A stretch of 41,752 bases of DNA, from positions 1 to 41,752 of the forward strand of contig CANRNF010000019.1 of the NCBI GenBank assembly GCA_947631865.1, written 5' to 3'. Below, piece after piece: positions 11,601 to 36,730 of this stretch (the stretch's first letter is position 1; the number at the start of each line of letters is the position of its first letter). Position numbers and translations under genes: made by a program. The notes under the pieces are model-generated. The model searched no databases, had not been told where the DNA came from, and was given only the letters and a program-made list of their open reading frames with translations. The stretch comes from an uncultured Oscillospiraceae bacterium (GTDB lineage Bacteria; Bacillota; Clostridia; Oscillospirales; Oscillospiraceae).

Positions 11601-12439
11601 TATGGGAACTGAGGCATGAACACAAGGTGACGCTGTTGCTGGCCATTGCCGGTCTCCCTCGCAGCACATATTATTACTACACCAGAAAGCAGAAAGAGCC
11701 GGACAAATATGCTGGGTTGAAAGAGGAGATTTGCGCTATAGTGACAGAAAACAAAGGGCGATACGGCTACCGAAGAGTAACGCTTGAACTGCAAAACCGG
11801 GGATTCCACTATAACCACAAGCTTGTTATGAAGCTCATGAAGCAGCTTGGCGTGAGCAGCAAAGTAAGGATGAAGAAGTACTGTTCTTACAAGGGCGAGG
11901 TTGGGAAGGCAGCCCCGAACCTATTGGGAAGAGACTTCTCTGCCGAGAAGCCGAACCAGAAATGGGTCACCGATGTAACGGAATTCTCTTTGTTCGGAGA
12001 AAAGCTGTATCTGTCGCCTGTTCTTGATTTGTGCAGTGAGGATCTGGTCAGCTATACGATCTCCGAACGGCCAAGACTCGACATGGTCCTTTCCATGGTG
12101 GAAAAAGCGTTTACAACGATCCCGGATGATACGGGACTGATCCTGCACTCTGACCAGGGGTGGCAGTACCGGCACAAGCACTACCAGGAAATGTTGAAAG
12201 CAAAAGGTGTTAAGCAGAGTATGAGCCGGAAAGGAAACTGCTTGGACAACGCTGTAATGGAAAACTTCTTTGGGGTGCTCAAGTCAGAGCTGCTCTATCT
12301 GCAGCAGTTCGATTCCTTGGAACATTTCAAATCTGAACTTATTGACTATCTCGACTACTACAATAATCGCAGGATCAAGGCAAAATTAAAGGGCCTGACA
12401 CCTGCTCAGCACAGATACCAGACCCTTCGGGTCGCTTAG
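11597..12439 (+). CDS. IS3-family transposase OrfB (DDE integrase domain)
   Basis: The 280-residue frame begins at a GTG overlapping the OrfA stop and is also reachable by -1 frameshifting at 11543. After an HTH_21-type region (AGLPRSTYYYY, then GRYGYRRVTLELQNRG), the rve core shows the three catalytic acids: D in WVTDVTEFSLFG, D in ILHSDQGWQY, and E in DNAVMENFFGVLKSE. The ending YYNNRRIKAKLKGLTPAQ is typical. Length is normal, with no internal stop. Confidence 0.93.
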   Translation: MIWELRHEHKVTLLLAIAGLPRSTYYYYTRKQKEPDKYAGLKEEICAIVTENKGRYGYRRVTLELQNRGFHYNHKLVMKLMKQLGVSSKVRMKKYCSYKGEVGKAAPNLLGRDFSAEKPNQKWVTDVTEFSLFGEKLYLSPVLDLCSEDLVSYTISERPRLDMVLSMVEKAFTTIPDDTGLILHSDQGWQYRHKHYQEMLKAKGVKQSMSRKGNCLDNAVMENFFGVLKSELLYLQQFDSLEHFKSELIDYLDYYNNRRIKAKLKGLTPAQHRYQTLRVA

Positions 12440-13253: not shown

Positions 13254-14174
13254 TCAGCGACCCAAATCAGTAAACAGATCCTCTGAATATGTACCATCCT
13301 CAACAAGACGTCGGACGGCCTCCGTCACCGCCGCTCTGTCCTCCTGGTAGGTCATGCCGAACCACTCATCCCGGGTAGGCAGGACCTGGACTCTCGCTTT
13401 TCCCTCCCGGATGTGACTGCCGATGATATCCGGCAGGAGATACTCGTCATGCAGCGGGTCCCGGATAGATGCCCGGAACGCCGCGAAGCCCGTCCGCAGG
13501 TCCTCCAGGAATGCCGGCGTCAGCATCCACATGTTCATAGATACCAGCTGATCTCCATCCAGCGCCACAAGGCCGCTGTCTGTCCGCACAGCAGCGCCTT
13601 GGGGCGTTTTTATAATGCCCCGCGTCTCCCTGATGCCGGCAAGATACCCGCTGTCATCCACGGCGCAAAGGCCCCGTGTCACGCCGCCGGCCTCAGAAAG
13701 CGTGTTTTTCAATGCGAACCCGATCATCCCATATACATTTTGTTCTTTGGGGCTGTATTCTCTCATAAAGCGCTGCGCCTGGATAAAGGCGTGCTTCCCA
13801 TAGTAGTCATCCGCGTTGATGACGGTGAAGGGTCCGTCCAGCAGGCCGAGACATGACAGGAGGGCGTGTCCCGTGCCCCAGGGCTTCTTCCGTCCGGCCG
13901 GCAGATCATCCGTCTCCTGGAACACATATTCCGGCCTGACGCCCAACGGCGCCAAGCGCCGCTCCAGCCTGTCACCGATGACCGCGCGGAAATCGCCGTA
14001 TGTGCTCCGACGGATGATGAAGGCTACCCGCCCAAAGCCCGCCTGCACGGCGTCGTGCACGGAATAGTCGATGATAAGCTCACCGTTCGGCCCCACGGGC
14101 TCCAGCTGTTTGATCCCTTTTCCGTATCGCGCGCCGACCCCGGCGGCCAATACGACAAGCGTCGTCTTGCTCAT
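13254..14174 (-). CDS. Sugar-1-phosphate-type nucleotidyltransferase
   Basis: The 306-residue protein is an NTP_transferase-fold enzyme. It has the signature VVLAAGVGARYGKGIKQLEP near the N-terminus (the Gly-rich loop with Arg, then Lys), an INADDYYG block with the metal-binding Asp near 115-120, and LHDEYLLPDI near the C-terminus. It would join a nucleotide to a phosphorylated sugar or alcohol; the substrate cannot be told. It starts six bases after the glf stop with AAAGGG upstream, so it is the last gene of the polysaccharide operon. It converges with the interrupted phosphoesterase across 36 bases. Confidence 0.82.
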   Translation of the reverse strand: MSKTTLVVLAAGVGARYGKGIKQLEPVGPNGELIIDYSVHDAVQAGFGRVAFIIRRSTYGDFRAVIGDRLERRLAPLGVRPEYVFQETDDLPAGRKKPWGTGHALLSCLGLLDGPFTVINADDYYGKHAFIQAQRFMREYSPKEQNVYGMIGFALKNTLSEAGGVTRGLCAVDDSGYLAGIRETRGIIKTPQGAAVRTDSGLVALDGDQLVSMNMWMLTPAFLEDLRTGFAAFRASIRDPLHDEYLLPDIIGSHIREGKARVQVLPTRDEWFGMTYQEDRAAVTEAVRRLVEDGTYSEDLFTDLGR

Positions 14175-14180
14175 ATCCCT

Positions 14181-15308
14181 TTAACCCTTTAATTCCCGTT
14201 CGCTCACGTCCAGCGCTGCGGCTATAACCTGGTCCATGTCGTAATACCTGTACTCCCCCAGCCGGCCGCCGAATATGATGTTCCTTTCCCTCTCCGCCAG
14301 CGCTTTGTACTGCCTGTACAGGGCGCTGTTTCTCTCGTCGTTCACCGGGTAATAAGGCTCGTCCCCTGGCTTCCACTCGCTGCTGTATTCCCGGCTGATC
14401 ACCGTTTTGGGCAGGTCGTTGCCCTCATCGTCCTTGCCGAACTGGAACCACTTGTGCTCGATGATCCGCGTCCAGGGCGTCTCCCGGTCCGTGTAATTCA
14501 CCGCCGCGTTCCCCTGGAAATTAGGTTTATCCAGCACTTCGGTCTCAAACCGCACACTTCGGTATTCCAACGCTCCCAATCCATAGCCGAAGTACGCGTC
14601 GATGGGTCCGGTATACACCACCCTCTCCGCCAGCGCGTCCAGCTCTGCCTTATGCTCCAGGTAATCCACGCCCAAGCGCACTTCGATGCCCTCCAGCATA
14701 TTGGCCACCATCTGGGTGTAACCGCCGACGGGGATGCCCTGGTACAGGGCGTTGAAGTAGTTGTTATCAAAGGTCAGCCGCACCGGCAGCCGCTTGATGA
14801 TGAACGCCGGCAGGGCCCTGCAGGGCCGGCCCCATTGCTTCTCCGTGTAGCCCTTCACAAGCTTTTCGTAGATGTCGGTCCCCACCAGGGAGATGGCCTG
14901 TTCCTCCAGGTTTTTCGGCTCTGTGATGCCGGCCGCTTTCCGCTGCTCCTCGATCTTCGCTGCGGCCTCCTCCGGCGTCGTCACGCCCCACATGCGATTG
15001 AAGGTGTACATGTTGAAGGGAAGAGAGTACAGCTCGCCGTGGTAGTTGGCCACCGGGGAATTGGTGAACCGATTGAACACAGCAAAGCTATTCACATAGT
15101 CCCAGACCCGTTTGTCGTTGGTATGGAAGATGTGGGCGCCATATGTATGCACGTGGATGCCCTCGATATCCTCGGTGTAGACGTTCCCCGCGATATGGGG
15201 CCGCTTGTCCACGACCAGCGCAGACTTGCCTGCATCTTTCATCTGTCGAGCGAATACCGCGCCATACAGGCCTGCGCCGACAATGAGATAGTTATATTTC
15301 CTTTCCAT
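14181..15308 (-). CDS. glf: UDP-galactopyranose mutase
   Basis: This flavoenzyme converts UDP-galactopyranose to UDP-galactofuranose. The 375-residue product has the family length and landmarks: FAD-binding YLIVGAGLYGAVFARQM at the N-terminus, HIAGNVYTEDIEGIHVHTYG, AHIFHTNDKRVWDYVN, GYTEKQWGRPCRALP, RLTFDNNYFNALYQGIP, and the C-terminal FGGRLGEYRYYDMDQVI with the diphosphate-binding Arg. The ATG at 15308 has AGAGGG five bases upstream. With galE in the same locus it indicates galactofuranose in the polymer. It lies eight bases after the glycyl radical activase. Confidence 0.97.
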   Translation of the reverse strand: MERKYNYLIVGAGLYGAVFARQMKDAGKSALVVDKRPHIAGNVYTEDIEGIHVHTYGAHIFHTNDKRVWDYVNSFAVFNRFTNSPVANYHGELYSLPFNMYTFNRMWGVTTPEEAAAKIEEQRKAAGITEPKNLEEQAISLVGTDIYEKLVKGYTEKQWGRPCRALPAFIIKRLPVRLTFDNNYFNALYQGIPVGGYTQMVANMLEGIEVRLGVDYLEHKAELDALAERVVYTGPIDAYFGYGLGALEYRSVRFETEVLDKPNFQGNAAVNYTDRETPWTRIIEHKWFQFGKDDEGNDLPKTVISREYSSEWKPGDEPYYPVNDERNSALYRQYKALAERERNIIFGGRLGEYRYYDMDQVIAAALDVSERELKG

Positions 15309-16221: not shown

Positions 16222-17326
16222 CTAATACAAATATTTTAACTTCAAGTGTCGCATAATACGGCAGATAAACAAGCTGATTATGATCGTTCCGAATATCCGT
16301 ACGATATATAGACAGATCGACGGCAGCATATCTGTGAAGAGCCTGCTGCCGAGCCATGCGAACCCGATCGCCAAAATGGGATAATTCAGCGGATCGGCAT
16401 ACAAATATATGCCAAAAGAGCTTCGGAGAAGCAGCTGGCAAGCCCTCGTATGAGGGATGCTTGTCGAGCTCAGAAGCGCGGAAAACAGATACATGGTCCA
16501 GGAACCCTCCACCGCGAGGATTGGACCGAACACCAGCTTTTCGACCAATTCAAGGTCAAGAATATACTTCGATCCCACTGTAAGGACGAATGCTCCGCAG
16601 GCGACAAATAAGTGCTTCCAGTGTACCCCCCCCCGGGAGGATATTTGTTCTTCTCGGCTCAAACCAGAAGCCCAGATAAAACCAAAACGTCATTTCCATA
16701 ATGGACTGACTGCGCCACCCTATCAGCCGGTTGGCAGCATAGGCGCAGAACATCAGCCCCAGCTTCCAATACACATGTCCCGGCCAGAAGGTCTCCAAAA
16801 GATAAGCGACGATAAAAATGCAGAACAGTACCAGAAGGAACCATAGATGCGTATCATCCCGGATCAGCACCTGTCCCATTATGAGATCCCGGAAAAGATG
16901 CTCGCTGCCCGCATAGTATCCCGAAAAGTACTTCAGCGGAAACGAATACAGCACACCTACAATGAAATAAGGAATGAGCAGCCTCCTGCCTTTTTCAAGC
17001 ACCAGAGCTTTAAAGCTCATGTACTTCCCTTTCTCAAAAGAGCGATAAAATAGCGCTCCGCTCAGCGCCATAAACAGCGGCATGTGGAATAGGTAGATCA
17101 ATCCGGACAGGCTGGAAACGCACCGCTGGAACAGCGATGCCCCCGAAAAAAACACCGAATAATCGCATCCGCCGTATTTTGTCACATGGGATACATAGGT
17201 AGCATGCCCCAACACCACCAGCAGCGTCACGATCACCCGCAGGACGTCATACTCTGCCACATGGCTGGCACTTGATCCTGTTGCTCTGGGAGATACAGCT
17301 TTCTTATCTGTTACATTCGCCATCAT
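16222..17326 (-). pseudogene. Acyltransferase family 3 membrane protein, frame broken at G9 tract
   Basis: Two frames together make one acyltransferase-3 protein. The first (17326 to about 16635) begins MMANVTDKKAV and carries YDVLRVIVTLLVVLGHATYV, with the catalytic-type His, then FHMPLFMALSGALFY, KGRRLLIPYFIVG and THLWFLLVLFCIF. It is thrown off frame at the G9 run and ends at 16556. The second frame continues straight on with VHWKHLFVACGAFVLT, RSSFGIYLYADPLNYP and further helices to 16222. With eight G's the whole would be 367 residues, normal for the family, which O-acetylates or otherwise acylates surface glycans. No other lesion is visible. It may be a phase-variable gene caught in the off state, or a homopolymer sequencing error. 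Confidence 0.88.
16626..16634. repeat. Homopolymer C9 (G9 on coding strand) inside acyltransferase gene
   Basis: Nine C's on the plus strand lie exactly where the acyltransferase frame breaks. Counting codons, eight or eleven G's would join the upstream frame (ending NILPGG) to the downstream one (VHWKHLF). Nine gives premature termination. Confidence 0.9.
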
Positions 17327-17338
17327 GCTCTGTTGACC

Positions 17339-18784
17339 TCATCTGATAATGTGCAGTTTTCTCATAACGCTTTTGACATTTCCCAAAAAGAACGCATCCC
17401 TCTCCGCCAGCAGTGTCAAAAAATACACCGCCGCGCCCACGGCCACGATCACGGCTGTGTGAAAAATGGACGGCGACAGCCGGCGGCAGACAGGCCAAAG
17501 GACCAGGACCATGACCGCCCCGGCGATGTAGTAGTGCACGCCCTCGCTCAGAATCTTACCCGGCGACAGCTCTTTTCTCACGATCACCAGCTGCACCACC
17601 GCGATGACCGTCTCCGCCGCCACAGATGCTATCGCCGCGCCAATGGACTGTATCCTGTTTATCAGGATCATATTCAGCACAAAATTCGTGCACGCCCCTA
17701 TGATGACCGTATATGTGAAGAGATTTTGCCTTTTTGTTGGAATAAAATACTGTATCCCGGTCACATTGTTGATCCCTATCGCCAGAATCAGCAGCGACAG
17801 GATCTGCAAAAGCGGCACGACCTTGTCGTAGCCCGGTCCAAAGAACCAAGGGACGAAATTCCCGGCCGCCATGATCACGCCAAAGCACAGCGGAATGCCC
17901 AGGAACCAGACGAACCGATAGCTCCGGTACATCAGCCGGCGGACCTCAAACGCCTCTCCCTTTCCGAAAAGGTTTCCCACCCGCGGCACCATCACCGTAC
18001 CCAGCGCCGTCACAACCGCCAACAGCATCCTGGCTATCTTGATCGCCTGCTCGTAGTAGCCGTTCTCAAAGGAGCTGCCCGTGATGAGGCCGATCATCGT
18101 CTTGTCCAGGACGGTATATATCTGGATGGCGATCGTGGGGATGAACAGGGACCATACTACTTTTATGTCCCGAAACGGTCGCAGCGCGCGGATATCGATT
18201 CTATTTATATACCGCGGCAGGTATGCCCACAGGGACAGGTTCCCCAGCGCCGTGAACAGGCCCACTCCCAGCACGTAGAGGGGCAGGTCCTCTTTCGTTT
18301 TGACGAACAGGAAGATATAGGCAATCTGCAGAAGCTTGAAGAGCGCGTTGCGCGTTACGGTCTTGCCAAACTCCTCCAACCCCTGAAAGAACCAGGTGAT
18401 GTCAAAAAACACCGCCACAAGATTCAGCGTCAAGATAAGATACAGCGTGGACCGTTCCTTCTGCAGGAGCGCAAAAACCACATATACCGCCGTAGCAGCG
18501 GCGGACGTGCAGAAGCCCAGGACCTTTGTATTCCAAAAGACCTGGCTCCGCTTTTCCATGTCGTCCTGCACATAGGAGATCTCCCGCTGGCCGTAGGTGG
18601 TGATGCCCATGGTGGCAAAAAGTGTGAAATACGCCACGACGGATTCCACATAGCTGGCCGTCCCCACGCCGTCCGGCTCCAGCACCCGCGACAGATAGGG
18701 CGCCACGACCAGCGGCATGAGCAGCAGCAGGACCTGATAGGCCACGTTATATATGTAATTGAGCTTGACGTTTTTCCTCTGCAT
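17339..18784 (-). CDS. wzx: Wzx-type polysaccharide flippase
   Basis: The 481-residue protein is a multi-pass membrane protein of the MOP superfamily, with about twelve to fourteen hydrophobic segments. Its start is typical (NYIYNVAYQVLLLLMPLVVA, then YLSRVLEPDGVG). FFDITWFFQGLEEF near 130 and KIARMLLAVVTALGTVM in the middle are family blocks. It would move the lipid-linked repeat unit across the membrane for polymerisation by Wzy. The ATG at 18784 lies 13 bases after the glycyl radical enzyme stop, with GGCGGAG just upstream. The gene name follows function; no orthology is claimed. Confidence 0.93.
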   Translation of the reverse strand: MQRKNVKLNYIYNVAYQVLLLLMPLVVAPYLSRVLEPDGVGTASYVESVVAYFTLFATMGITTYGQREISYVQDDMEKRSQVFWNTKVLGFCTSAAATAVYVVFALLQKERSTLYLILTLNLVAVFFDITWFFQGLEEFGKTVTRNALFKLLQIAYIFLFVKTKEDLPLYVLGVGLFTALGNLSLWAYLPRYINRIDIRALRPFRDIKVVWSLFIPTIAIQIYTVLDKTMIGLITGSSFENGYYEQAIKIARMLLAVVTALGTVMVPRVGNLFGKGEAFEVRRLMYRSYRFVWFLGIPLCFGVIMAAGNFVPWFFGPGYDKVVPLLQILSLLILAIGINNVTGIQYFIPTKRQNLFTYTVIIGACTNFVLNMILINRIQSIGAAIASVAAETVIAVVQLVIVRKELSPGKILSEGVHYYIAGAVMVLVLWPVCRRLSPSIFHTAVIVAVGAAVYFLTLLAERDAFFLGNVKSVMRKLHIIR

Positions 18785-18797
18785 AGCTCCGCCTGTG

Positions 18798-20834
18798 TCA
18801 CGCCGCCTTCTCGCTCTCGATCGCCCGGGCGATCAGAACGTCCTTGTACTCCTCCGGCAGGTCGTTAAAGTACGCGCTGAAGCCCCAGACACGCACGACC
18901 AAATTGGGGAACAGCGTCGGATCCGCTTTTGCCGCGATCAGGGTCTTGCTGTCCACCACATTCATCTGCAGCTGGAAGATACCGCCGGCAAAGCCCGCCC
19001 GCAGCAGCACCGCGTATTTCTTGATATTCTGCGTCAGCATGCCCGGCGACGTGATGAAATCTATCACATTGCCGTTGAGCCGGTTGTCGTTATAGTCCAT
19101 CTGCATGGCGAAGGACAGAAGCTCCGTTGTCGGTATGGCCGAAGCGGAGGAGATGTGCACGCTGAACGGGTCGCCGCTGCGCCGTCCGTCAAATGTCGCC
19201 GAGACATCCTGTGCTCTGATGATATAATCAGGCGAGCTGAGGCCAAATTTGAACCTCCCGCCTTGACTGGTCTTGTATTTACCAAACTCACCGCTTGTAA
19301 AGGCAATGAGCCGCCTGGCCAGCGCCACCACCTCCGGATCGTCGCAGCCGAAGCAGGGCTTCAGGTCCTTCATCTCCTGCAGCAGCTCCTCCCGGCCGGT
19401 AAAGTCGTTCCTTCGGAGCGCGTTCAGCTGGTCCGCTTTATAACGTTTTTCGGCAAAGACGAGCTTTTTGATGTTGAGCAGGGAATTAACGACCGTGCCA
19501 AGTCCCACCGATGTGAGGCCCATGTTATTGTACCTTGCTCCGCCCCGGGTGATATCCTTCCTCCTCTTCACGCAAGACGGACTCAAAAGCGAAAGGAGCG
19601 GATCCTCCTCAAAAGCCTTGGTCGTCAGCGGGGTCAAAAGCTCACTGATGTACTCCCTAAGCTCGGCTTCATAGAGCGAAATGACCTCCTCCATTGACCC
19701 CGCCGCATCGAACGCGGGGGAATCCGCCATTTTCATGAAAGGCTCGGCAAAATTCAAAGATGCCACATTGTTCGGCTCAAAGCTCAGCCCCGGGATGAGC
19801 GGTTCCCAGCAGGCCGATACGCCGTAGCTATAAACATCCGCCTCATCATAGCCGCAGGAGAGCATGGCCGGGATGACCGTGTCGTCGTTGGACAGGAGCG
19901 GCGCGCCGATGCCAGTGGCGATGCACTTCACCGCCGCCTCCAAAAGATCCCCCGGCATATCCGCCGTGCAGCGCAGCAGCACCTTGGGGTCGGGCAGCTT
20001 GAGTTCTTCGGAGACCTCGATGAACAGATACGTCAGCTCGCTGCAATGATAGCTTCCATCCGATTCACGACCGCCTAAAATAGTGATCTGGCCCGTATCG
20101 CCCATGAGCACATTACTCTTGAACCAGTAATACTCATGCAGAGCCCGGAAGAAGCTTTTAAGAAGCTCCTTTGCGTCCTGACGCGACAGAACACCGGCGT
20201 CAACATCCCGCCGGTAGAGATCCTCCAATATCCAGTCCAGGTGGCCCAAACCATTGAGCGTGTGGCCCGTCTGCCAGAGAAACTGGTTATAGAACAAAAT
20301 CCGTTGCAGCGCCTCGAAAAAACTCTCCGCAGGGCGTTCAAAAAGCGACGCAGCCGCGTCCAGCTGGCGGCTGTACTTATCCCTCACGCCGGGCGTCCGC
20401 CGGCACCGCTCCAGGTAGGACCCCATGGCCCGCAAGAGCGTGTTCCTCTCCTTGCCGAAGCTGTCTGCCGGGGCCTCCTCCTCGCGAAGAGCGCCATGCA
20501 CGAGCATGTCGATATCCGCTGTGCAATTGTCATAGACTGTATTGCGGTTCTCCACCGTTTTATAACAGTCCAGCGAATAGAAAAAGCTGTCGTTATCCAC
20601 CGGCTGGATATCCACCTTTTGGAACAGTCTGGCGATCTGCGCCGCTTTGCTCTCCAGGGGACGCTCCAGCCGGAGACGACGGCCGTATTCCCGCAGAAAG
20701 GTGCCGAACCCACGTACCTGGCCAACCCGCCGATATCTGCGGTAGAGAATGACCCCGTAATACAGGTTTCTGGTAACCGGGGATGCATAAACTGCTCGCT
20801 TAAGTGCTTTTTTGATCATTTTCCTGATCTCCAT
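18798..20834 (-). CDS. Glycyl radical enzyme (PFL-like) in the polysaccharide operon
   Basis: The 678-residue protein has both hallmarks of a catalytically competent glycyl radical enzyme. An active-site cysteine followed by Glu lies in YGVSACWEPLIPG (Cys about 342). The C-terminal glycyl loop is VRVWGFSAYFNDL (Gly about 651), preceded by FQLQMNVVDSKTLIAAKADP and FPNLV. Family members place A or S before the Gly; here it is Trp. It is shorter than pyruvate formate-lyase or the diol-lyases (about 760-850). Substrate unknown: the Cys-x-Glu arrangement occurs in the eliminase group acting on diol-like compounds, so a dehydration or C-X cleavage is plausible. The ATG at 20834 has GAGGAAG upstream; a TTG at 20852 overlapping the wzy stop is possible. 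It lies between wzy and wzx, and its activase is two genes downstream. Confidence 0.92.
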   Translation of the reverse strand: MEIRKMIKKALKRAVYASPVTRNLYYGVILYRRYRRVGQVRGFGTFLREYGRRLRLERPLESKAAQIARLFQKVDIQPVDNDSFFYSLDCYKTVENRNTVYDNCTADIDMLVHGALREEEAPADSFGKERNTLLRAMGSYLERCRRTPGVRDKYSRQLDAAASLFERPAESFFEALQRILFYNQFLWQTGHTLNGLGHLDWILEDLYRRDVDAGVLSRQDAKELLKSFFRALHEYYWFKSNVLMGDTGQITILGGRESDGSYHCSELTYLFIEVSEELKLPDPKVLLRCTADMPGDLLEAAVKCIATGIGAPLLSNDDTVIPAMLSCGYDEADVYSYGVSACWEPLIPGLSFEPNNVASLNFAEPFMKMADSPAFDAAGSMEEVISLYEAELREYISELLTPLTTKAFEEDPLLSLLSPSCVKRRKDITRGGARYNNMGLTSVGLGTVVNSLLNIKKLVFAEKRYKADQLNALRRNDFTGREELLQEMKDLKPCFGCDDPEVVALARRLIAFTSGEFGKYKTSQGGRFKFGLSSPDYIIRAQDVSATFDGRRSGDPFSVHISSASAIPTTELLSFAMQMDYNDNRLNGNVIDFITSPGMLTQNIKKYAVLLRAGFAGGIFQLQMNVVDSKTLIAAKADPTLFPNLVVRVWGFSAYFNDLPEEYKDVLIARAIESEKAA

Positions 20835-22402: not shown

Positions 22403-23416
22403 TTAGAACCCGAATGGCCAGCCACCGGGTATAAGCTTCAGCAGCCAATATGCAAGATATTTCGTTTTGCGGCAGAGTTTGATAAAGATATCAGTTTTTG
22501 TAGAGACCTCATCAAGGCTGAAAATATCGTAGGAGATCGATCCAAGCTCCCGCTCATAGGCCCGAAAGCGGCACAAGGATTCCTTTGAAACCGGGGCCAA
22601 GAGAATCATCTTGATACCTAACGAATAGTCAGCCTGGATACACCTTTTCACAACAGTCATATGTTGAATTTTCTTCCCTTTTGCGCTTTCATAGAAATGG
22701 ATCAGGTCTTCGACATTTTGCTTTAATTCGTCGGCGTGGGACACCATTGACTGCCGGGTAGTACTTTGCCCCTCCCGCTCAAGACGCCAATTCTCTACAC
22801 AGAGATCAAAGAATCGTGCGCTCTCGCAAAAGGCTGGCGGGATATCGTTATAGAAAATATCTGTATACAGCCGATGTGCCGGAAGATCCAAGCCGGCCTT
22901 TCGCAGAGTCTCCGTCTTATAGAATGTGCCATGGATGCCGGGGAAGGTTTTTATATCCTCCAATTGGACGGCCTTACCATCTTTGGATGTCTCGCCCGGA
23001 ACACCGATCCCGTTCACATATCGAAAAGTGCCATCCGCATAGGCGTCCTGAAAAGAAGCATACACGACGTCGTCATCCAGTCCCCGCAGCGCCGTAACCA
23101 TCTTGACCAGTTCTTCCGTATCAAACCAATCGTCACCATCCAGCAGCTTGAAATACTTCCCCGTCGCATGGGCGATGCTGTAGTTGACGGTCGTGCCGTA
23201 ACCGCCGTTTTCCTTATGGACAGCAAATATGGAATCGGGATACTTGGACGCATACTCCTGCGCGATCTCCAGCGTCCGGTCCGTGCTTCCGTCATCCACA
23301 ACGAAAACTTCCAGATTATCGATTACTCGCTCATCGGTCAAGGAATCCAACGCTTGGTGCAAATACGCTTCCATATTGTAGGCAGCGATGGAAACAGTTA
23401 AAACCTTATCGGGCAT
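22403..23416 (-). CDS. GT2-family glycosyltransferase
   Basis: The 337-residue protein has a GT-A fold domain in its first 220 residues: VLTVSIAAYNMEAYLHQAL, FVVDDGSTDRTLEIAQEY, NGGYGTTVNYSIAHATG and the metal-binding KLLDGDDWFD. The C-terminal third is helical and variable, likely acceptor-binding. It would add one sugar (or a polyol/phosphoryl group) to the lipid-linked repeat unit at the cytoplasmic face. The ATG at 23416 is chosen because AAGGAGAAG lies upstream; the frame is open further but that part is not protein-like. It follows the nucleotidyltransferase by 53 bases. A gap of 168 bases to wzy holds no gene that I can see. Confidence 0.9.
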   Translation of the reverse strand: MPDKVLTVSIAAYNMEAYLHQALDSLTDERVIDNLEVFVVDDGSTDRTLEIAQEYASKYPDSIFAVHKENGGYGTTVNYSIAHATGKYFKLLDGDDWFDTEELVKMVTALRGLDDDVVYASFQDAYADGTFRYVNGIGVPGETSKDGKAVQLEDIKTFPGIHGTFYKTETLRKAGLDLPAHRLYTDIFYNDIPPAFCESARFFDLCVENWRLEREGQSTTRQSMVSHADELKQNVEDLIHFYESAKGKKIQHMTVVKRCIQADYSLGIKMILLAPVSKESLCRFRAYERELGSISYDIFSLDEVSTKTDIFIKLCRKTKYLAYWLLKLIPGGWPFGF

Positions 23417-23469
23417 CAGATAGCTTCTCCTTCCAAGCTTTGTGACATGGATAACCAACGTAGAATGCG

Positions 23470-24231
23470 TCAAACACTTCCATGAAACACACTTTTTGAT
23501 AAAGGCAGCGCCATAAACTCCTTCACTTCCTCCGGTGTACCCAGCACATGGACCTTTTTCGCATCCACAATGCCGATGCGAACGTCCATACTTTTTTCAA
23601 TCATCCAGTTATAGAGCGGGGCGATGTACCGTTCCCCGTTTTCCCTGGCTTCGGTCGACCCATAGTACTCGTCGTAAAGGCTTTGGTACAACTGCGCCGA
23701 CGAAAAGTAATACGCGCCCAAAGTGCAGTTGTCCGATATCCGCTTTTTCTCCCGGATCTCCACAACGCGCCCGTCCGCGTCTAAACGCACAAAACTCCAG
23801 TGCTCACCGGGGGCGTGGAAGCAGGGAATATAGCCGTCGCCACGGATATCCTCATACTTCAGCTCATAGGGTTCCACGTAGGTGTCGATATTGTAGACCA
23901 TGACAGGCTTCCCAAGATCACAGTAAGGCAACGCCAGTAGGCAGGTCGTTGCCTGGCCATTGGTCATGTGATCAAGCTCCAGGATCTGAATATTTGTAAT
24001 CCCGCATCCAGCACACTTTTCTTTGATAAACGTTGTTGCCAGATCCTCCACCCGAACAACAAAAATATATTTGGCTATATGGTTTTGGTACCCTTTCAAG
24101 CTGTCCATCGACCACTCAAAAAGCGTCCTTCCCTTTGCCTCGATCATATATTTGGGGCACGTATAGCCTACCGCACGGAATCGCGTCCCCAATCCAGCCA
24201 TCGTGATGATCGCAGTCATTTCCCCTGTCAT
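23470..24231 (-). CDS. Nucleotidyltransferase (NTP_transferase fold)
   Basis: The 253-residue protein has AIITMAGLGTRFRAVGYTCP (intact Gly-rich loop with Arg and downstream Lys), then LDHMTNGQATTCLLALPYC and the metal-binding MVYNIDTYV. It would form an NDP-linked product from a phosphorylated sugar or alcohol. The ATG at 24231 overlaps the HAD gene stop as ATGA, with GGGGGTGA seven bases upstream; an ATG four codons on is also possible. With the HAD gene and the kinase fusion directly upstream it forms a three-gene activation cassette (24231 to 26326). The cassette echoes 30786-33302. Confidence 0.85.
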   Translation of the reverse strand: MTGEMTAIITMAGLGTRFRAVGYTCPKYMIEAKGRTLFEWSMDSLKGYQNHIAKYIFVVRVEDLATTFIKEKCAGCGITNIQILELDHMTNGQATTCLLALPYCDLGKPVMVYNIDTYVEPYELKYEDIRGDGYIPCFHAPGEHWSFVRLDADGRVVEIREKKRISDNCTLGAYYFSSAQLYQSLYDEYYGSTEARENGERYIAPLYNWMIEKSMDVRIGIVDAKKVHVLGTPEEVKEFMALPLSKSVFHGSV

Positions 24232-24656
24232 TCCCTATCACCCCCGCTCTCCGCCTTGGAATCGCGGCAGATCTTGTCAAGCTCTTCCACCGTGTAGTTC
24301 AGGAATTCATTAGGGCGTACTGTGCGGTCATCCACATAAAAACCCTTGTGTCCCGGCCAAGGCTTGCCGTAGAGGATCTCATCGTACGGTATCCCCCATT
24401 TCTCCAGCCATGCCGCCAGGACCTTCGCCGTATTTTTGTTGATAAGCCCTATGTTGCCGCTATAGGTGTTCATGTTCCGGCTGGTGAAAAGTACGATCTT
24501 TGCTCCGCCAGCCTTATACTCGCGCAGCTTTTGCAGCATGTCGGCATATGGCACGATATCTTCATACCGTTCTTCCGCCTTCTTGACCGGGCATAGGGTC
24601 CCGTCAATGTCAAAGACGAAGGTATATCCGGCAAATGCATCAGGGATCATTTTCAT
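24228..24656 (-). CDS. HAD-superfamily phosphatase, capsule-locus type
   Basis: The 142-residue protein has HAD motif I FVFDIDGTLCPVK, motif II VLFTSRNMNTYSG, and YVDDRTVRPNEF as the C-terminal acid block. It has no cap domain, so it is a small C0-type phosphatase, of the kind often found beside nucleotidyltransferases in capsule loci. It probably removes phosphate from a biosynthetic intermediate. The ATG at 24656 overlaps the end of the kinase fusion by 17 bases. Its ribosome binding site is a G7AG run, itself part of that gene's last codons. The homologue at 30786-31202 sits beside the other kinase fusion. Confidence 0.85.
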   Translation of the reverse strand: MKMIPDAFAGYTFVFDIDGTLCPVKKAEERYEDIVPYADMLQKLREYKAGGAKIVLFTSRNMNTYSGNIGLINKNTAKVLAAWLEKWGIPYDEILYGKPWPGHKGFYVDDRTVRPNEFLNYTVEELDKICRDSKAESGGDRE

Positions 24657-24662
24657 TTTTCT

Positions 24663-24669
24663 CCCCCCC
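24663..24669 (-). promoter_or_regulatory. G7 run serving as ribosome binding site of the HAD gene
   Basis: The coding strand reads GAAGGGGGGGAGAAAA then ATG. The same bases encode Gly-Gly-Glu near the end of the kinase fusion. A length change here would alter both the spacing of this site and the last residues of the upstream protein. This is the only visible ribosome binding site for the HAD gene. Confidence 0.5.
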
Positions 24670-25953
24670 TTCTTCCTCAATGCCAATCACTCGGTCCAGA
24701 ATGTCCAGCCCAGTGGACAGCATGACAAGCTGCCGCTCGTAGCTTTCGGTGTGAAGGGGGATCATGCTCAAAAACAGAAGCGCTTCTATCAGCTCGATCT
24801 TTTCAAGGTCCTTGCCTATCTCCTCCCGGAAAACCGTTGAAAAAACTGTATATAAGTCATAGTCTCGCCTCCTGTCACTGATCGCATAGCGTATCTCCGC
24901 CTTAGACAGGTCATATTCGAGATCGAACAGGTCTTTGATAATAAAGTCATACTTGCCATCGACGCAGTGGAACAATTTGGCCAACTCATATCTCGGGTCA
25001 CCGTAGATATCATAAGCGCCGAATTTGCCACGCGGATCGATCAGCTTGATAAAGGAGAGGTCGTCGTCCACCATGATGTTGGTGAAGCACAAATCGCCAT
25101 GGATGAGCGTGAACCTTTCCACATCGTACAGCCTTTGCGGTATCCACTGCGTCAAGCCGACGCATATCTCGTCCAGACTCCTATACGTCTTGCCATTCAC
25201 TATGATCGGGTTTTCAAAAAACGGAAGGAATCTGCTTTCTGCGCGCAGCCTTTTCAGCCGCTGCAGTGTTTTTGTCAGGTACATCTCTGCAAGCGCCGCC
25301 TGCAAGCCGGTATCCGCCACGCTATACCGCCGAAAGTCATTGCAGACAAAGCGGATGCGCTCAAAAATATCCGCCCACTGCTGTTCGTTCAAATCTCCAT
25401 ACATAAACAGCTCATGCAATGTATGATAGGCGTAATATTCCATTTCCACATATGGCGCATCATAGGCTGTGGAATAGTCAAAGATCCTGGGCCGCACATA
25501 TTCCACATCTGTTGGCAGCTTTAAGTACCACTTGATCTCGCCGATGAATTTCTCTTTGTCATCGCTGGTCTTTTTTAAGATGCCCCTGCGCTTGTCGATG
25601 CTGATATGGTTAAACTCCCTCGCCTTGACCTCGAGGCCAAAATGATGGTACTTGTCCGCGTGACCGATGTCAAACCACTTGTCCGTTTTAACGGCGGTCA
25701 GCGGGTACCGCTCGCTGTATTCCCTCAGGGCGAAATAGAATGTGCTGACCTGATGGTCTCTGACCGCCTGTGCCTTTTCCAAGCACTGATAGAAGTACGG
25801 AGTATGCCGGATATAGAACACGCCGACAAAAAGCTTCTGTTTGCGTTTGTCCTGCTTCTGCGGCACGGCTTTGTCATAGATGGTGGTCAGGCGGCCGTTC
25901 TCTTCCTCAAAAAAGGTCCATGTATCCGATGAGATATCTTCAGTATAGTAGTA

Positions 25954-31202: not shown

Positions 31203-31786
31203 TCCTCTTTCCGAAGCTTCTCTCCGATGGCGCCACCGGGGTGATTCATTTTGAACTGCTCCAGCGTTACCCCCATCCGTTCTGCCAGGTTCAGGGCCAG
31301 TCCCTGCAGCACAATGAGGTTTACCGTGGTGGAATTGTTCGGCACGATATTCCACATATCCCCTTCGTGGTCAAGATCAAGAATCAGGTGCTTGGGGATC
31401 TCACGGGTCAGGGTGCTGTCCCGATTGAAGGAGAGCAGCCACAGATCCGCCCCCCGCTGTTTCAGCAATTCTGTGAGATATACAGACTCCACTGTCTCAC
31501 CGCTCTTGGTCAGGATGATGACCAGATCTCCCGGCTTGACCATGCCAAGATCCCCGTGAACGGCAGTATTGGTATTCATAAAGCACGCCTCGAGCCCCAG
31601 TGAGTTCATCGTTCCTACGAACTTATCGCAAACTGGCACATTCTTGCCCAAACCACTTACCACGACCTTGTTGCCGCTTTTCAGCACTTGCTCGCACTCA
31701 CTCAAAAGCTGGGCAAATACTGTTATATCCATTGACTCCACAGAGCGCTGGATGGCGTCCGTCATGCTCTTAAAGTACCTCTTCAT
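31199..31786 (-). CDS. SIS-domain phosphosugar isomerase (KpsF/KdsD-like, no CBS domains)
   Basis: The 195-residue protein is a single SIS domain: KVVVSGLGKNVPVCDKF, then VHGDLGMVKPGDLVIILTKS, GETVESVYLTELLKQRGAD and the ending NHPGGAIGEKL, which is typical of arabinose-5-phosphate isomerases. Those enzymes usually carry two CBS domains, missing here. It probably interconverts an aldose- and a ketose-phosphate as an early step to an unusual sugar. The ATG at 31786 has GGAGG six bases upstream and overlaps the kinase-fusion gene by 17 bases. Confidence 0.88.
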   Translation of the reverse strand: MKRYFKSMTDAIQRSVESMDITVFAQLLSECEQVLKSGNKVVVSGLGKNVPVCDKFVGTMNSLGLEACFMNTNTAVHGDLGMVKPGDLVIILTKSGETVESVYLTELLKQRGADLWLLSFNRDSTLTREIPKHLILDLDHEGDMWNIVPNNSTTVNLIVLQGLALNLAERMGVTLEQFKMNHPGGAIGEKLRKEE

Positions 31787-33302
31787 CGAGAGCCTCCTCC
31801 AGGTAGTAAAGGCCGTTATAAAACGCTCCGCAAATGGAATCGTAGTCCTCCCATGCGTAGGTTGTTAGCGACAGCCATATAATTGCGTGGATCAAATGGA
31901 TCTGCGCAGGCGTTATCTCGTCTTTCAGCAGACGGAAAAATACCGGCTCCATCTCTTCCCAGCCGTTCGACGCAATATCCAAAGCCACGCCCGCGTCCCC
32001 GACATCCAGGCAGAAACGTTTGCGGTTGAACTGGTCATAGTTTCCCACGACAGAGTAGTACAGCTTGGCCCAGTCATAGGCCGGATCACCGTAGAGCTCT
32101 GTAGTCCCAAAATAGCCTCGCGGGTCGATGAGGACCGGGGTCCCATCCTCCCGCAGCATTATGTTGGAGAAGGTGCAATCCCCATGAACGAGCTTGAATC
32201 GGGCAGGGAAAAACCTTTCCATCCTGCGTTCCAATTCTTCGCGGCAAAAAAATACATTGCGGCATCTGCGGCCATTCACTGTGACATACCTGTCTTGGGC
32301 GAAAGGCACAAGTTCCCGAACCTTCTCCAAACGCTGAAAAGTTTTGCCGATGTATGCCTCGTCATAGCTGGCCCGGTCAGAGGGGACATTCTCCAGCCCC
32401 TGTACGGCTCGCAGGCAACTGATAATCTGCCCCAGAAGCTCTCGCTTCCGGTCAAGGGCAAGATCACCATATTCATAAATAGCCTTGCCAGCGATGCGCT
32501 CCATCTTCAGCGGCTCATACGCCACTATTTCCGGAATGTTGACAAAGTGCTGATCCCGGACCCGCCTGTACCATGCCGTTTCCCGTTTTGCCAGCGCCGC
32601 GCCCTGGGCGTCGATGGCTTCCTTCACGAAATACCCGTCCTCGATATAGGTTTTATTGAAGGGTCGGCAACGGGCGGACTCCAGCTTTTCATATTCCGAC
32701 AGCAGCCCGTATTCCCTCACTTTGCAGAGGGGCAAGCTCTGAAAGCGCATGCCTGTCCCAGCCAGCCATCTAACCAGTTCACCCTCTGCTGGGACCCCAT
32801 CCAAAACAGACTTATCATGAAAGGCAAACAGCCCAGCCACGCCAAAGGTGTCTGAACGTTCCTCAGCAAAGACGCCGTTCTCGTATTTCCAACGGCAGGG
32901 GAAGTCTTTGGCCACGCCTATGTAGTCCCCCGGCTCTTCCGGAAGAACAAAGTCCGCTGGAAGGATAAGATCAGACCAGATGAGCATAAAGGGCTCATGC
33001 ACTGGCAGCTTGTCCACCGCCTGACGCAGTCCGGCGCAGGTGCCGGTATATCCGGCGGCACATACCAACTGGTAATCCACCGGCGCAAACGCCGCCAGAT
33101 ACCGCTCCAGCACATCGAACTTGTAGTCCCCGATGATGATATATCTGCTGTCCGGATACTTTCGGAACAGGTGGAACAGCATGGGAAGATTGTCGATAGG
33201 CACGAGCGCCTTGGGCTTGTTGGCTGTCAGATGGCCAAGGCGGGTTCCCTTTCCCCCAGCCTGGACGATGATATGATTCGGGTCTTTTCCCCGTCCGCTC
33301 AT
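31770..33302 (-). CDS. LicCA-like nucleotidyltransferase-kinase fusion (intact)
   Basis: The 510-residue protein has an N-terminal nucleotidyltransferase (residues about 6-235): IIVQAGGKGTRLGHLTANKP then KALVPI, and LIWSDLILPADF. The C-terminal APH/choline-kinase-like domain (about 260-500) has LVHGDCTFSNIMLREDG and LIDPRGYFGTTELYGDPAYD, the catalytic HGD-x5-N and D of the fold. It could phosphorylate a small alcohol or sugar and then activate it with a nucleotide in one protein, as in the LicCA fusion of treponemes. The substrate is unknown and no licD is present. The start at 33302 lies two bases after the previous stop, with GGAAGGA upstream. The related gene at 24640-26326 is frameshifted. 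Confidence 0.88.
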   Translation of the reverse strand: MSGRGKDPNHIIVQAGGKGTRLGHLTANKPKALVPIDNLPMLFHLFRKYPDSRYIIIGDYKFDVLERYLAAFAPVDYQLVCAAGYTGTCAGLRQAVDKLPVHEPFMLIWSDLILPADFVLPEEPGDYIGVAKDFPCRWKYENGVFAEERSDTFGVAGLFAFHDKSVLDGVPAEGELVRWLAGTGMRFQSLPLCKVREYGLLSEYEKLESARCRPFNKTYIEDGYFVKEAIDAQGAALAKRETAWYRRVRDQHFVNIPEIVAYEPLKMERIAGKAIYEYGDLALDRKRELLGQIISCLRAVQGLENVPSDRASYDEAYIGKTFQRLEKVRELVPFAQDRYVTVNGRRCRNVFFCREELERRMERFFPARFKLVHGDCTFSNIMLREDGTPVLIDPRGYFGTTELYGDPAYDWAKLYYSVVGNYDQFNRKRFCLDVGDAGVALDIASNGWEEMEPVFFRLLKDEITPAQIHLIHAIIWLSLTTYAWEDYDSICGAFYNGLYYLEEALDEEVL

Positions 33303-33304
33303 GT

Positions 33305-34270
33305 TTAGTCCACCGCTTCCTTCCACATCAGGCAATCGGAAAGGATGTCGCTGATCAGCTCATCTTCCCGTCCTGGCTCCAAAATATACTCTCGGACATG
33401 GTCTTCCCCGTTGGGTATACCGTTGGGTATAGATAAAGAGAAAAAATACCGCATGTTATAAGAAGCCCCGTAAATTCCGACTATATCGCAGCCCGAGAAA
33501 CAAACAAAATCGAAGAAGCCACTCCTCGTTCCTATCACATAACCGCACCAGCGGGCCAAACACCAGGCCTCTGCCAATGATGTAACGATGCCCTGCGTTC
33601 CCGGAACCGGTTCTTGCTCTTCAGAGCCCAAAATTGTTACGACCACAAAACCTTTTGCCTTTAATTCGCCAGCCAGCTTTATATATAAGCTCGCATCGAT
33701 CTCTTCTACAGCCATTCCACTTGTATAAGGATTTAACAGTACTGTTTTGCCAAAGCACATATCATACTTTTCTACAATACCTTCAATGTCGGTTTGGGGA
33801 ACAGCCGGCCCCTTCCGTTGCTCATCATTGAATAAGTTGAGAATATTCTTTACCACGGTATCCACATGGATCGAAGGATTGTTGTAGTAGAGATTCCCTT
33901 TCAAGTGGATTCCATAAGAAACATTTTTAATTCTTTTCGCTTTTTGATGGATCGTCCGGCCAATCGGTATACCACCAAAGCAAACAAGCCCAAGATAAAG
34001 CGGACACTTTAACACCAGGAGAGAATCCCAGCAGGGATAGAAATGTGCAACTTCCACCCGGTTAGGCGGAACTATCAACGTAATGTGTTTAATACTATTC
34101 TTTTTCTTGAACGCTTCCAAATAACCAAGGGCTATACAATAGTCTCCTAATCCTATATGAGGAATGTAATACACCGTATAACGATCCCTCAGAAGCAGCC
34201 ATATCGTAACGGGAAGCCCAAATATAGCGGTATAGAACAGTCTTCTAATATTTATCAAGAGGCGCTTCAT
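33305..34270 (-). CDS. Putative GT-B glycosyltransferase (GT9/heptosyltransferase-like)
   Basis: The 321-residue protein has an N-terminal hydrophobic segment (about 12-27). It then has YYIPHIGLGDYCIALGYLEA, resembling the G-x-G-D motif at the start of heptosyltransferase-type GT-B enzymes. VLLNPYTSGMAVEEID and VIGTRSGFFDFVCFSGCDIV correspond to the C-terminal nucleotide-binding half. Similarity is weak, so the family is tentative. The ATG at 34270 has AAGGAG eight bases upstream. The gene is more AT-rich than its neighbours. It follows the wreck of an acyltransferase gene. Confidence 0.6.
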   Translation of the reverse strand: MKRLLINIRRLFYTAIFGLPVTIWLLLRDRYTVYYIPHIGLGDYCIALGYLEAFKKKNSIKHITLIVPPNRVEVAHFYPCWDSLLVLKCPLYLGLVCFGGIPIGRTIHQKAKRIKNVSYGIHLKGNLYYNNPSIHVDTVVKNILNLFNDEQRKGPAVPQTDIEGIVEKYDMCFGKTVLLNPYTSGMAVEEIDASLYIKLAGELKAKGFVVVTILGSEEQEPVPGTQGIVTSLAEAWCLARWCGYVIGTRSGFFDFVCFSGCDIVGIYGASYNMRYFFSLSIPNGIPNGEDHVREYILEPGREDELISDILSDCLMWKEAVD

Positions 34271-35266: not shown

Positions 35267-36730
35267 TTATGCTCTCTTAAACAGGTATCCCTTGATGCTT
35301 CCAAACGCCTTCAAGCTCCGCTTCAGGTCCTCCGGGCTTTGCAGTCCCCGCCAAATGCGGTGCATGATATAGCGCGGACGGAGATAATACCGCCTTCTGG
35401 CGTCGTCGCAGAACCGGACCAACTCCTCCGATGTTATATTCGGAAGCTCCAACACGCAGTTGATCGTTCCGTCCTCTTTCACGTAGTCGGCATAGCCGCC
35501 TTTGATATATCCGTTTCCCTTAGCCCAGGCATAGGCCTCCGTCCCCGGGAAGGGCAGCAGCGGATAGAACTGCGCTGTATCCGTGTTCAGCTTCAGGGCC
35601 AACTGGAATGTATCCTCCATCGTCTCATGGGTCTCGCCGTTGTTGCCCACCATATAGCAGGCGTGGACAAACAGCCCCGCCTTCTTGGCATTGGCGATGT
35701 AATCTTGGATCTGCCGGATCGTCGTTCCCTTCTTGATATTGTTCAAAATCTGCTGAGAGCCGCTCTCGATCCCCGGGATGATCAGGTGGCATCCCGCCTT
35801 CTTCATGATTTTCATCGTATCCAGATCCAGGTTGACCCGGGCGTTGCAAAGCCATTTCAGCCGCTTGTTCAGCCCTCTTTCAATAAGCAGTTCACAGATA
35901 CGCACGACCCTCTCCCGTCTGGCTGTAAAGGTGTCGTCCTCAATAATGACTTCTTTCACATCCGGGAAATTGTCCGCAATATACTGAAACTCAGCCACCA
36001 CGTTTTCCGGACTGCGCAGCCGGTACTGGTGGCCGTGCATCGTCTGCGGGTAAACACAGAAATTGCAGTGGGCCATGCAGCCCCGGCCGGTGAATATCTG
36101 AATGGCAGGATATCTTCCCGCCGCGAAGAAATAATCCAGATGGTTCAGGTGTTTTTTGATGAACTCCGCAGCAAAGGGCAGCTCGTCCAAGTCCGTGATA
36201 TGCTCCATATCCGGATTGGATATGATCTTCCCGTCCTTTCGGCAGGTAAGTCCCTTTACCATGCAGGGATCAGCGCCGTCCCGCAGGGACCGTGCCACAT
36301 CCCTGACGATATAGTCAAACTCTCTTCTGGCGACGGCGTCTATCTTTTCGCTGACCGCCAGTGTCTCCGTCGGCAGCGCGGACGGATGCGTGCCCACCAG
36401 CATGCAGAAGGCCTTGGGGTATTCCCTCTTCAGTTCCTCCGTGAACGCGATGTCGCTGTAGATCGATGGCGTGCTTGTATCCATGACGAAAAGGCGAGGA
36501 TCCTGCGCCTTTTGCCGGATGATCTCCAGTGTCTGCTCCTCATTGAGCGGCGCCGCCGGCGCGTCAACAAACACGATGTCAAACCCATCCTTTTCACATA
36601 CCGCCGCCGCGTAGATCAGCCACAACGGATAATACAAAGTACCGCTCCTCGTAAGAGCGGGGCTGCGATTCTCCCGTGAGAATTTCCCATACTCCGCCTT
36701 GAACGGCGGATTCACAAAAATGATCTGCAT
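35267..36730 (-). CDS. Cobalamin-binding-type radical SAM protein
   Basis: The 487-residue protein has a Rossmann-like B12-binding-type N-terminal domain (about 1-150: IIFVNPPF, YPLWLIYAAAVCEKDG, LVGTHPSAL) and a radical SAM domain (about 200-400). The cluster motif is C-x3-C-x2-C at 218, 222 and 225 (GRGCMAHCNFCVYPQT), followed by VKEVIIEDDTFTA and LIIPGIESGSQQIL. Members methylate unreactive carbons, close rings or cleave bonds. In a polysaccharide locus it may methylate or rearrange a sugar, but the substrate cannot be told. The ATG at 36730 has AGGGG eight bases upstream and lies three bases from the GT2 stop. Confidence 0.92.
   Translation of the reverse strand: MQIIFVNPPFKAEYGKFSRENRSPALTRSGTLYYPLWLIYAAAVCEKDGFDIVFVDAPAAPLNEEQTLEIIRQKAQDPRLFVMDTSTPSIYSDIAFTEELKREYPKAFCMLVGTHPSALPTETLAVSEKIDAVARREFDYIVRDVARSLRDGADPCMVKGLTCRKDGKIISNPDMEHITDLDELPFAAEFIKKHLNHLDYFFAAGRYPAIQIFTGRGCMAHCNFCVYPQTMHGHQYRLRSPENVVAEFQYIADNFPDVKEVIIEDDTFTARRERVVRICELLIERGLNKRLKWLCNARVNLDLDTMKIMKKAGCHLIIPGIESGSQQILNNIKKGTTIRQIQDYIANAKKAGLFVHACYMVGNNGETHETMEDTFQLALKLNTDTAQFYPLLPFPGTEAYAWAKGNGYIKGGYADYVKEDGTINCVLELPNITSEELVRFCDDARRRYYLRPRYIMHRIWRGLQSPEDLKRSLKAFGSIKGYLFKRA

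Follow-up and report, generated by a model that had tools for sequence, protein, structure and literature searches.

The window analysed here, the whole 41,752-nucleotide stretch of contig CANRNF010000019.1 from an uncultured Oscillospiraceae bacterium of the gut, contains a polysaccharide gene cluster in which a 678-residue glycyl radical enzyme (GRE) is encoded between the repeat-unit polymerase Wzy and the oligosaccharide flippase Wzx. The reading tentatively put forward for this protein is that it would act at the membrane surface on the lipid-linked repeat unit, one sugar of which would have an oxygen removed or shifted ahead of export of the unit by the partner Wzx; it is kept tentative because it requires the identity of the enzyme, its role in polysaccharide synthesis, carbon–oxygen (C–O) chemistry on a sugar and a step at the membrane to hang together. 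To our knowledge, GREs are known from catabolism, fermentation and nucleotide reduction, and no GRE assigned to surface polysaccharide synthesis was found in the open-licence full-text literature, a search with subscription papers mostly outside its scope and thus no proof. The parts of the locus are of known kinds, their combination and the GRE subfamily appear to be new, and the findings suggest a part for anaerobic radical chemistry in making the surface sugars of bacteria.

That the window protein is a genuine GRE is, judged from its sequence, virtually certain. It matches the PFL-like barrel profile (PF02901, 239.7 bits against a cut-off of 24.3) and the glycine-radical domain (PF01228, 41.2 bits against 22.2), with the thiyl-radical Cys342 and Glu344 lying in the motif GVSACWEP, the radical Gly651 in VVRVWGFSAYF, and a tryptophan beside both Cys and Gly (Trp343 and Trp650); Cys, Glu and Gly are kept in 13 of 13 aligned members of its clade. 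The original prediction had placed such a GRE between wzy and wzx, with an activase in the same run of genes, and both statements are borne out by the profiles of the proteins concerned (Table 1), with the addition that the cognate radical-SAM activase is not adjacent to the GRE, being separated from it by wzx and a frame-split acyltransferase gene. The activase carries its CX3CX2C motif at residues 30, 34 and 37, and its residue 58 aligns to profile position 99, leaving about 40 positions missing in what is presumably the stretch where many relatives carry extra iron–sulfur clusters.

A role of the GRE in polysaccharide synthesis is highly probable from the company that its gene keeps. The host genome (3.0 Mb, 87% complete) holds a second copy, 68% identical, in another polysaccharide locus (L015), and these two are the only PFL-like GREs found in it. 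Nine loci came from a scan of the species genome collection, all in assemblies titled as metagenome-assembled genomes from 'Lapin' samples (the name presumably points to rabbit) and labelled Oscillospiraceae, Lachnospiraceae (with Acetatifactor and Eisenbergiella) or Clostridia. Further searches covered 400 genomes of the family, 394 of the order, 391 of the class and 348 of the phylum; they added clade members in three genomes of the family draw (the host included) and then in G679, G1003 and G770, with none beyond class level among the 348 phylum genomes, so the clade is rare. The resulting set comprises 14 loci (the window, L015, L003 to L011, and L072 to L074; L016 and L017 duplicate L003 and L005 and are not counted as loci). 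A Wzx-type gene lies beside the GRE or one gene off in 13 of the 14, the window included, and an activase is likewise present in 13, the contig of L010 ending within wzx. The spacing between GRE and Wzx is 7–20 bp in eight of nine loci. The Wzx-type gene of L074 is distant (166 bits, against at least 750 in the other loci scored), and L003, L004 and L074 are contigs of 4–5 kb whose setting was judged by Wzx alone (plus the UDP-galactopyranose mutase Glf in L004). Among 69 proteins hand-chosen near the GRE in ten of the 14 loci, the commonest Pfam families among the matches listed (25 of 53) are glycosyltransferase family 2 (10), Polysacc_synt (8), GLF (4), acyltransferase 3 (4) and Wzy_C (4), and LicD (2) is also present. 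The possibility that homologues would mostly lie outside glycan loci and cluster with a fermentative enzyme is thus contradicted for the GRE's own clade, all 14 loci being tied to polysaccharide genes; it is the sister clade, described below, that sits outside such loci, in sugar catabolism.

Within these loci the GRE co-diverges with its flippase and its activase. In the nine loci with all three genes, the identity matrices correlate with r = 0.92 for GRE and Wzx, 0.91 for GRE and activase and 0.94 for Wzx and activase, values reached in 4, 4 and 0 of 5000 permutations, respectively; shared species history may lie behind part of this three-gene correlation. The nine GRE-linked Wzx copies are 54–88% identical to each other. 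In 380 family genomes, Wzx of the GRE type (86–100% identity) was found three times, twice in the host (G000) and once in G358, each time adjoining a clade GRE, and the next-best Wzx is 42% identical. The window Wzy, by comparison, is only 35–37% identical to those of L006 and the second own copy, the two loci in which it could be matched, where the GRE reaches 64–68%, Wzx 78–86% and the activase 67–79%. Since the GRE-type Wzx was GRE-linked in all three cases and Wzy is so divergent, the GRE appears to go with the flippase and not with the polymerase.

Several routes by which such a module might have spread were considered. Among the GREs, that of the window is closer to the L003, L005 and L007 proteins (71–77%) than to the second own copy (67%), and this includes L007 (71%), which belongs to a different family by label; for Wzx and the activase, however, the own copies are the nearer ones (86 and 79%, against 77 and 68% between the window and L007), and reassortment of the module or its movement between species is therefore not supported. 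Third-position GC in the window is 0.73–0.79 for GRE, Wzx, activase and Glf against 0.46 for wzy, and the GRE exceeds its upstream gene in L005, L006, L007, L010 and L015; because it does not do so in L009, L072 and L073, base composition is only a weak indication of a cassette. Carriage by phages was rejected, as no relative is among the 24 pattern matches from viral contigs, and so was carriage by plasmids, where all 90 matched records fall below 60% identity (21–30% among the 40 matches listed).

A second trait of the clade is a basic N-terminal tail, which also contains aromatic and aliphatic residues. Residues 1–60 carry a net charge of +14 in the window GRE and a mean of +11.7 in the clade (8 to 15, n = 12), against +1.0 in the sister clade (−5 to 9, n = 46, with one of the 46 reaching 8) and +1.2 in other GREs (−9 to 7, n = 16); outside these residues, the proteins of each of the three groups are on average acidic. 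When counting begins at an aligned anchor and not at the predicted start, the means are +12.2 (8 to 19), +1.9 (−2 to 11) and +1.9 (−7 to 6). The simplest reading of the tail would be a surface contact with the anionic membrane, and a membrane step as such is put at even chances.

The clade to which the window protein belongs is a separate subfamily, as had been predicted from the short length and the tryptophan before the radical glycine. In a tree of 78 GREs (a quick search with SH-aLRT support only and no fixed direction), the polysaccharide members form one clade (12 of 12, support 100) and a sister group another (48 of 48, support 100), the two being joined with support 97 and lying apart from YbiW, PflD, HypD, CutC-like, propanediol-type and PflB sequences; PflB and a short GRE from L081 are long branches of unsure position. 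The combination of C-W-E with R-V/I-W-G occurs in 13 of 13 clade members, 48 of 48 sister members and none of 18 others, in a sampling that used a profile or protein of the polysaccharide clade and so favours twin-Trp sequences. Of the 52 search-hit loci outside the clade, 48 have the twin Trp, and the other four (L044, L066, L104 and L105) lie outside the sister clade and are counted among the 18. The second, cut GRE of L007 (455 aa), a locus with two clade GREs, was excluded from the tree and the charge counts, and L023 (cut) and L046 (overlong) from the length and charge counts. Both twin-Trp clades further share GD(T/N)GQ, DPK, NDD and a shortened N-terminal region, at a mean identity of 26% between them; sister members have Trp in place of the clade's Phe652.

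For the window protein, three other clade members and three sister members, every NCBIfam GRE model stays below half its cut-off, whereas a HypD control scores 1511.8 bits with its own model (cut-off 1100). For the window protein, the models of choline TMA-lyase, HypD and sulfopropanediol dehydratase give 179.5, 166.9, 177.8 and 153.3 bits against 1050, 1100, 1000 and 1000, PRK09983, which we take to be the PflD model, gives 182.8 against 1109, and TIGR01774 (formate acetyltransferase/glycerol dehydratase) gives 238.1 against 678.2, a cut-off that the HypD control also misses (660.9). Pyruvate formate-lyase proper has Cys-Cys where C-W-E stands here, and its model TIGR01255 gives 25.8 bits against 994.2; a fermentative PFL is rejected on the basis of this motif and of the fact that both PFL-like GREs found in the 87% complete genome belong to the polysaccharide clade.

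The sister clade bears on the likely chemistry. In 17 sister loci that were read, no Wzx profile match was found among the open reading frames scanned (at least 90 aa, E up to 1e-5). Among 103 neighbouring proteins, the commonest families among the matches listed (25 of 158 matched families) are AraC regulators (8), GH36-like raffinose synthase (3), sugar-binding proteins (3) and MocA oxidoreductases (3), followed with two each by GH109, FGGY kinases, sugar ABC parts, GH31 and melibiase, and they include some families outside sugar metabolism; GH43, GH78 and LacI were seen directly in sister loci. Many of these loci seem to serve the utilisation of plant glycans, and the nearest kin of the polysaccharide clade thus appear to handle sugars. 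We know of no name for these twin-Trp GREs of carbohydrate-utilisation loci, a group larger than the polysaccharide clade, and no description of this group in gut sugar catabolism was found in the literature searched. With the tree undirected, the polysaccharide clade may be a biosynthetic offshoot of catabolic kin, or the reverse. YbiW and PflD of E. coli are GREs cleaving anhydro-sugar phosphates (PMC12441222), and they resemble the present clade in acting on sugar derivatives, as its members would; they differ in forming a separate branch of the tree, in their C-I/V-E and RVAGY motifs and in being catabolic. Together with the sister clade, these two enzymes provide a precedent for sugar chemistry by the GRE fold, and a sugar substrate undergoing C–O chemistry is considered reasonably probable.

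Two further kinds of GRE were noticed. An odd short GRE of 668 aa (L081:12792-14798, with an activase at L081:11889-12782) has SACCTF and VRMYGFSEYF and adjoins a sister-clade GRE, and GREs of L076 (15096-17294, sharing its stretch with a sister-clade GRE) and L066 have GCYEP with QVRRCGWN and QVRVCGWN loops, respectively, on a branch of their own (support 100).

The structural reference is the B12-independent glycerol dehydratase (iGD; PDB 1r8w/1r9d), which belongs to the same fold family and on which Cys342 and Glu344 align with Cys433 and Glu435, the radical Gly being aligned as well. Published dehydratase structures assign roles in substrate binding to His164 and Asp447 of this enzyme. The column of Asn103, which we take to be that of His164, is Asn in 12 of 12 clade and 45 of 46 sister members and His in 12 of 16 other GREs, in a gappy region of the MAFFT alignment; Asn356 falls on Asp447 by counting, and this column is Asn in 12 of 12 clade members and Asp in 6 of 16 other GREs, the sister clade likewise having Asn there. 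The diol-lyase residues, which the original prediction proposed to check, are thus kept in part: Cys-x-Glu is present as C-W-E, and His164 and Asp447 are both replaced by Asn. The predicted pocket is that of a GRE with its catalytic trio, lacking the full diol-dehydratase set. It is also probably more open. The window GRE has 341 residues before the Cys compared with 432 in the glycerol dehydratase, and the median stretch between the columns of residues 82 and 103 is 21 residues long for clade members, compared with 37 for the sister group and 94 for other GREs.

In the mechanism envisaged, the activase would place the radical on Gly651, from where it would pass to Cys342, which would abstract hydrogen from a carbon of the sugar; Glu344 would serve as acid/base while an oxygen of the sugar is lost or shifted, by dehydration or another C–O cleavage. 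The basic tail would keep the GRE against the membrane's inner face, its substrate there being the repeat unit carried on undecaprenyl and its target most likely a residue that many serotypes share. The Wzx inherited with the GRE would be a flippase adapted to the modified unit, which Wzy would then polymerise. A lipid-linked unit is the most likely substrate because the GRE keeps company with the flippase while the polymerase varies from locus to locus, and because of the tail. Several points weigh against this mechanism. L011, a deep member of the clade (38% identity), has glycosyltransferases, an epimerase and the activase but no recognisable partner Wzx in its 22 kb. The Asn residues at both dehydratase columns leave textbook diol dehydration not assured. 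By the hydrophobic moment of the tail, clade and sister cannot be told apart (0.58 against 0.56, with 0.42 in others), so that the case for the tail is made by its charge, and a basic tail can bind nucleic acid or a partner protein instead. Finally, the gene linkage also fits a nucleotide-sugar substrate.

On an alternative view that is on balance unlikely, such a substrate, a nucleotide-activated sugar, would be converted by the GRE in the cytosol, at a previous stage of the pathway. That nucleotides can be substrates for this kind of enzyme is clear from class III ribonucleotide reductase, itself a GRE; nucleotidyltransferases lie near the GRE in the window, and Glf or part of it is found in 8 of the 14 loci at 75–90% identity (cut or in pieces in L004, L008 and L009). 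One candidate is UDP-galactofuranose, the product of the neighbouring Glf, whose exocyclic C5–C6 diol is similar to propane-1,2-diol, on which related GREs act; dehydration of this diol would yield a 5-deoxy aldehyde sugar. Attractive as this is, the association with Glf is not peculiar to GRE loci: eight near-full-length glf genes were counted in the genome, and six of nine above-cut-off wzx-type genes (four of seven without the two GRE loci) have a glf on their contig; moreover, L007 and L072 have GRE, Wzx and activase with no Glf within the stretch examined. Galactofuranose is thus a possible substrate without specific support, and action on any nucleotide sugar would leave the basic tail unexplained. 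Quite unlikely is action on a non-sugar substituent of the polymer, such as choline, glycerol or ribitol phosphate, after the manner of choline lyase or glycerol dehydratase. Fusions of a nucleotidyltransferase with a kinase are encoded at 31770-33335 of the window (NTP_transf_3 plus APH) and, similar in make-up, next to the second copy of the GRE, there with a match to Choline_kinase; there are also an IspD-type cytidylyltransferase in L009, LicD in 2 of the 69 neighbours and an Fe-ADH_2/NTP transferase/HAD trio in L006; none of these markers, however, was seen beside the GRE in all loci, the CutC model stays at 179.5 bits against its cut-off of 1050, and the nearest relatives sit in sugar loci.

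The catabolic setting of the sister clade could also mean that the GRE is a catabolic enzyme and a mere passenger, which is very improbable given that all 14 loci are polysaccharide clusters and given the tight spacing to Wzx (7–20 bp in eight of nine), the co-divergence with it and the clade-specific tail. The link to the flippase, together with the cleavage of glycyl radical proteins by oxygen, might suggest a non-catalytic protein or anaerobiosis sensor that regulates Wzx or Wzy, yet with Cys, Glu and Gly kept in 13 of 13 members and an activase that co-diverges this seems exceedingly improbable. Should the lipid-linked unit indeed be modified before it is flipped, radical chemistry would extend to glycan assembly, through a clade with its own signature, basic tail and co-inherited flippase; gut commensals might carry an undescribed sugar, and a surface structure seen by host and phage would be linked to oxygen. 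It is rather doubtful, though conceivable, that this would go as far as a sugar that oxygen-tolerant pathways may not make, a polymer structure fixed only under anoxia and a co-evolved flippase type.

Table 1. Genes of the same-strand run around the GRE gene in the window, in order of transcription.
Feature	Coordinates	Strand	Basis
HAD phosphatase, EcbF/BcbF capsule type	24228..24686	-	TIGR01689, 132.7 bits (below cut-off, 162)
Nucleotidyltransferase	23470..24231	-	weak Arch_glmU and HddC-like NCBIfam matches, below cut-off
Glycosyltransferase family 2 (GT2)	22403..23473	-	PF00535, 101.5 bits
Wzy-type repeat-unit polymerase, 461 aa	20849..22234	-	TIGR04370, 92 bits (cut-off 40)
GRE, 678 aa	18798..20834	-	ATG start at 20834, stop end 18798; Pfam and residues
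Wzx-type oligosaccharide flippase, 481 aa	17339..18784	-	PF01943, 85.7 bits (cut-off 28.2)
Acyltransferase-3 gene, two frames	16222..17326 (16556-17326; 16222-16662)	-	PF01757, 66.8 bits, first part
Radical-SAM activase, 266 aa	15317..16117	-	TIGR02494, 209.6 bits (cut-off 174.35)
UDP-galactopyranose mutase (Glf)	14181..15308	-	TIGR00031, 407.4 bits (cut-off 303.75)
MobA-like NTP transferase, final gene of the run	13254..14174	-	PF12804, 20.8 bits (below cut-off, 27)

With flippase, polymerase and glycosyltransferases together, and with Glf and an acyltransferase, the window resembles other Wzx/Wzy-dependent clusters, from which, as far as they are described in the open-licence literature searched, it differs in having a GRE. 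By the coordinates, the gaps on either side of the GRE gene are 14 bp (to wzy) and 13 bp (to wzx). The wzy start codon is TTG according to the ORF tool, and the Wzy protein has no Pfam match. The two acyltransferase frames overlap, and the L006 relative (17118-18248) aligns to one and then to the other, as with a frameshift or an assembly error. Further up the cluster lies a B12-binding radical SAM protein (35267-36730; PF04055, 78.6 bits; PF02310, 45.1 bits), and another radical SAM protein is encoded at L011:16633-17883.

Some of the related loci show irregularities of their own. Directly behind wzx in the second module copy (L015 ~11799-12286; G000:C2:84795-85225) there is a broken Glf remnant with one in-frame TAG, a trace of recombination; behind the activase there is another Glf, 90% identical and free of stops. 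In L008 (7451-9013), 0.3 kb behind a Wzx, the GRE match starts only at residue 157, and the gene is possibly decayed or misassembled. The 4-kb contig of L004, whose GRE is 96% identical, has been binned as Lachnospiraceae, and L003, with a 77% identical GRE and from the window's genus, is labelled Oscillospiraceae, a clash that reflects either recent transfer or a binning error. Close to the clade GRE in four loci (L073:13130-14149, L009:12075-13037, L072:12220-13158 and L007:1342-2376), a protein family of 312–344 aa was observed that has no match in Pfam (L009 copy), in NCBIfam or in the PDB at E < 0.5 (L073 copy for both); it carries invariant AGYK and DEDIF motifs and is perhaps a glycosyltransferase.

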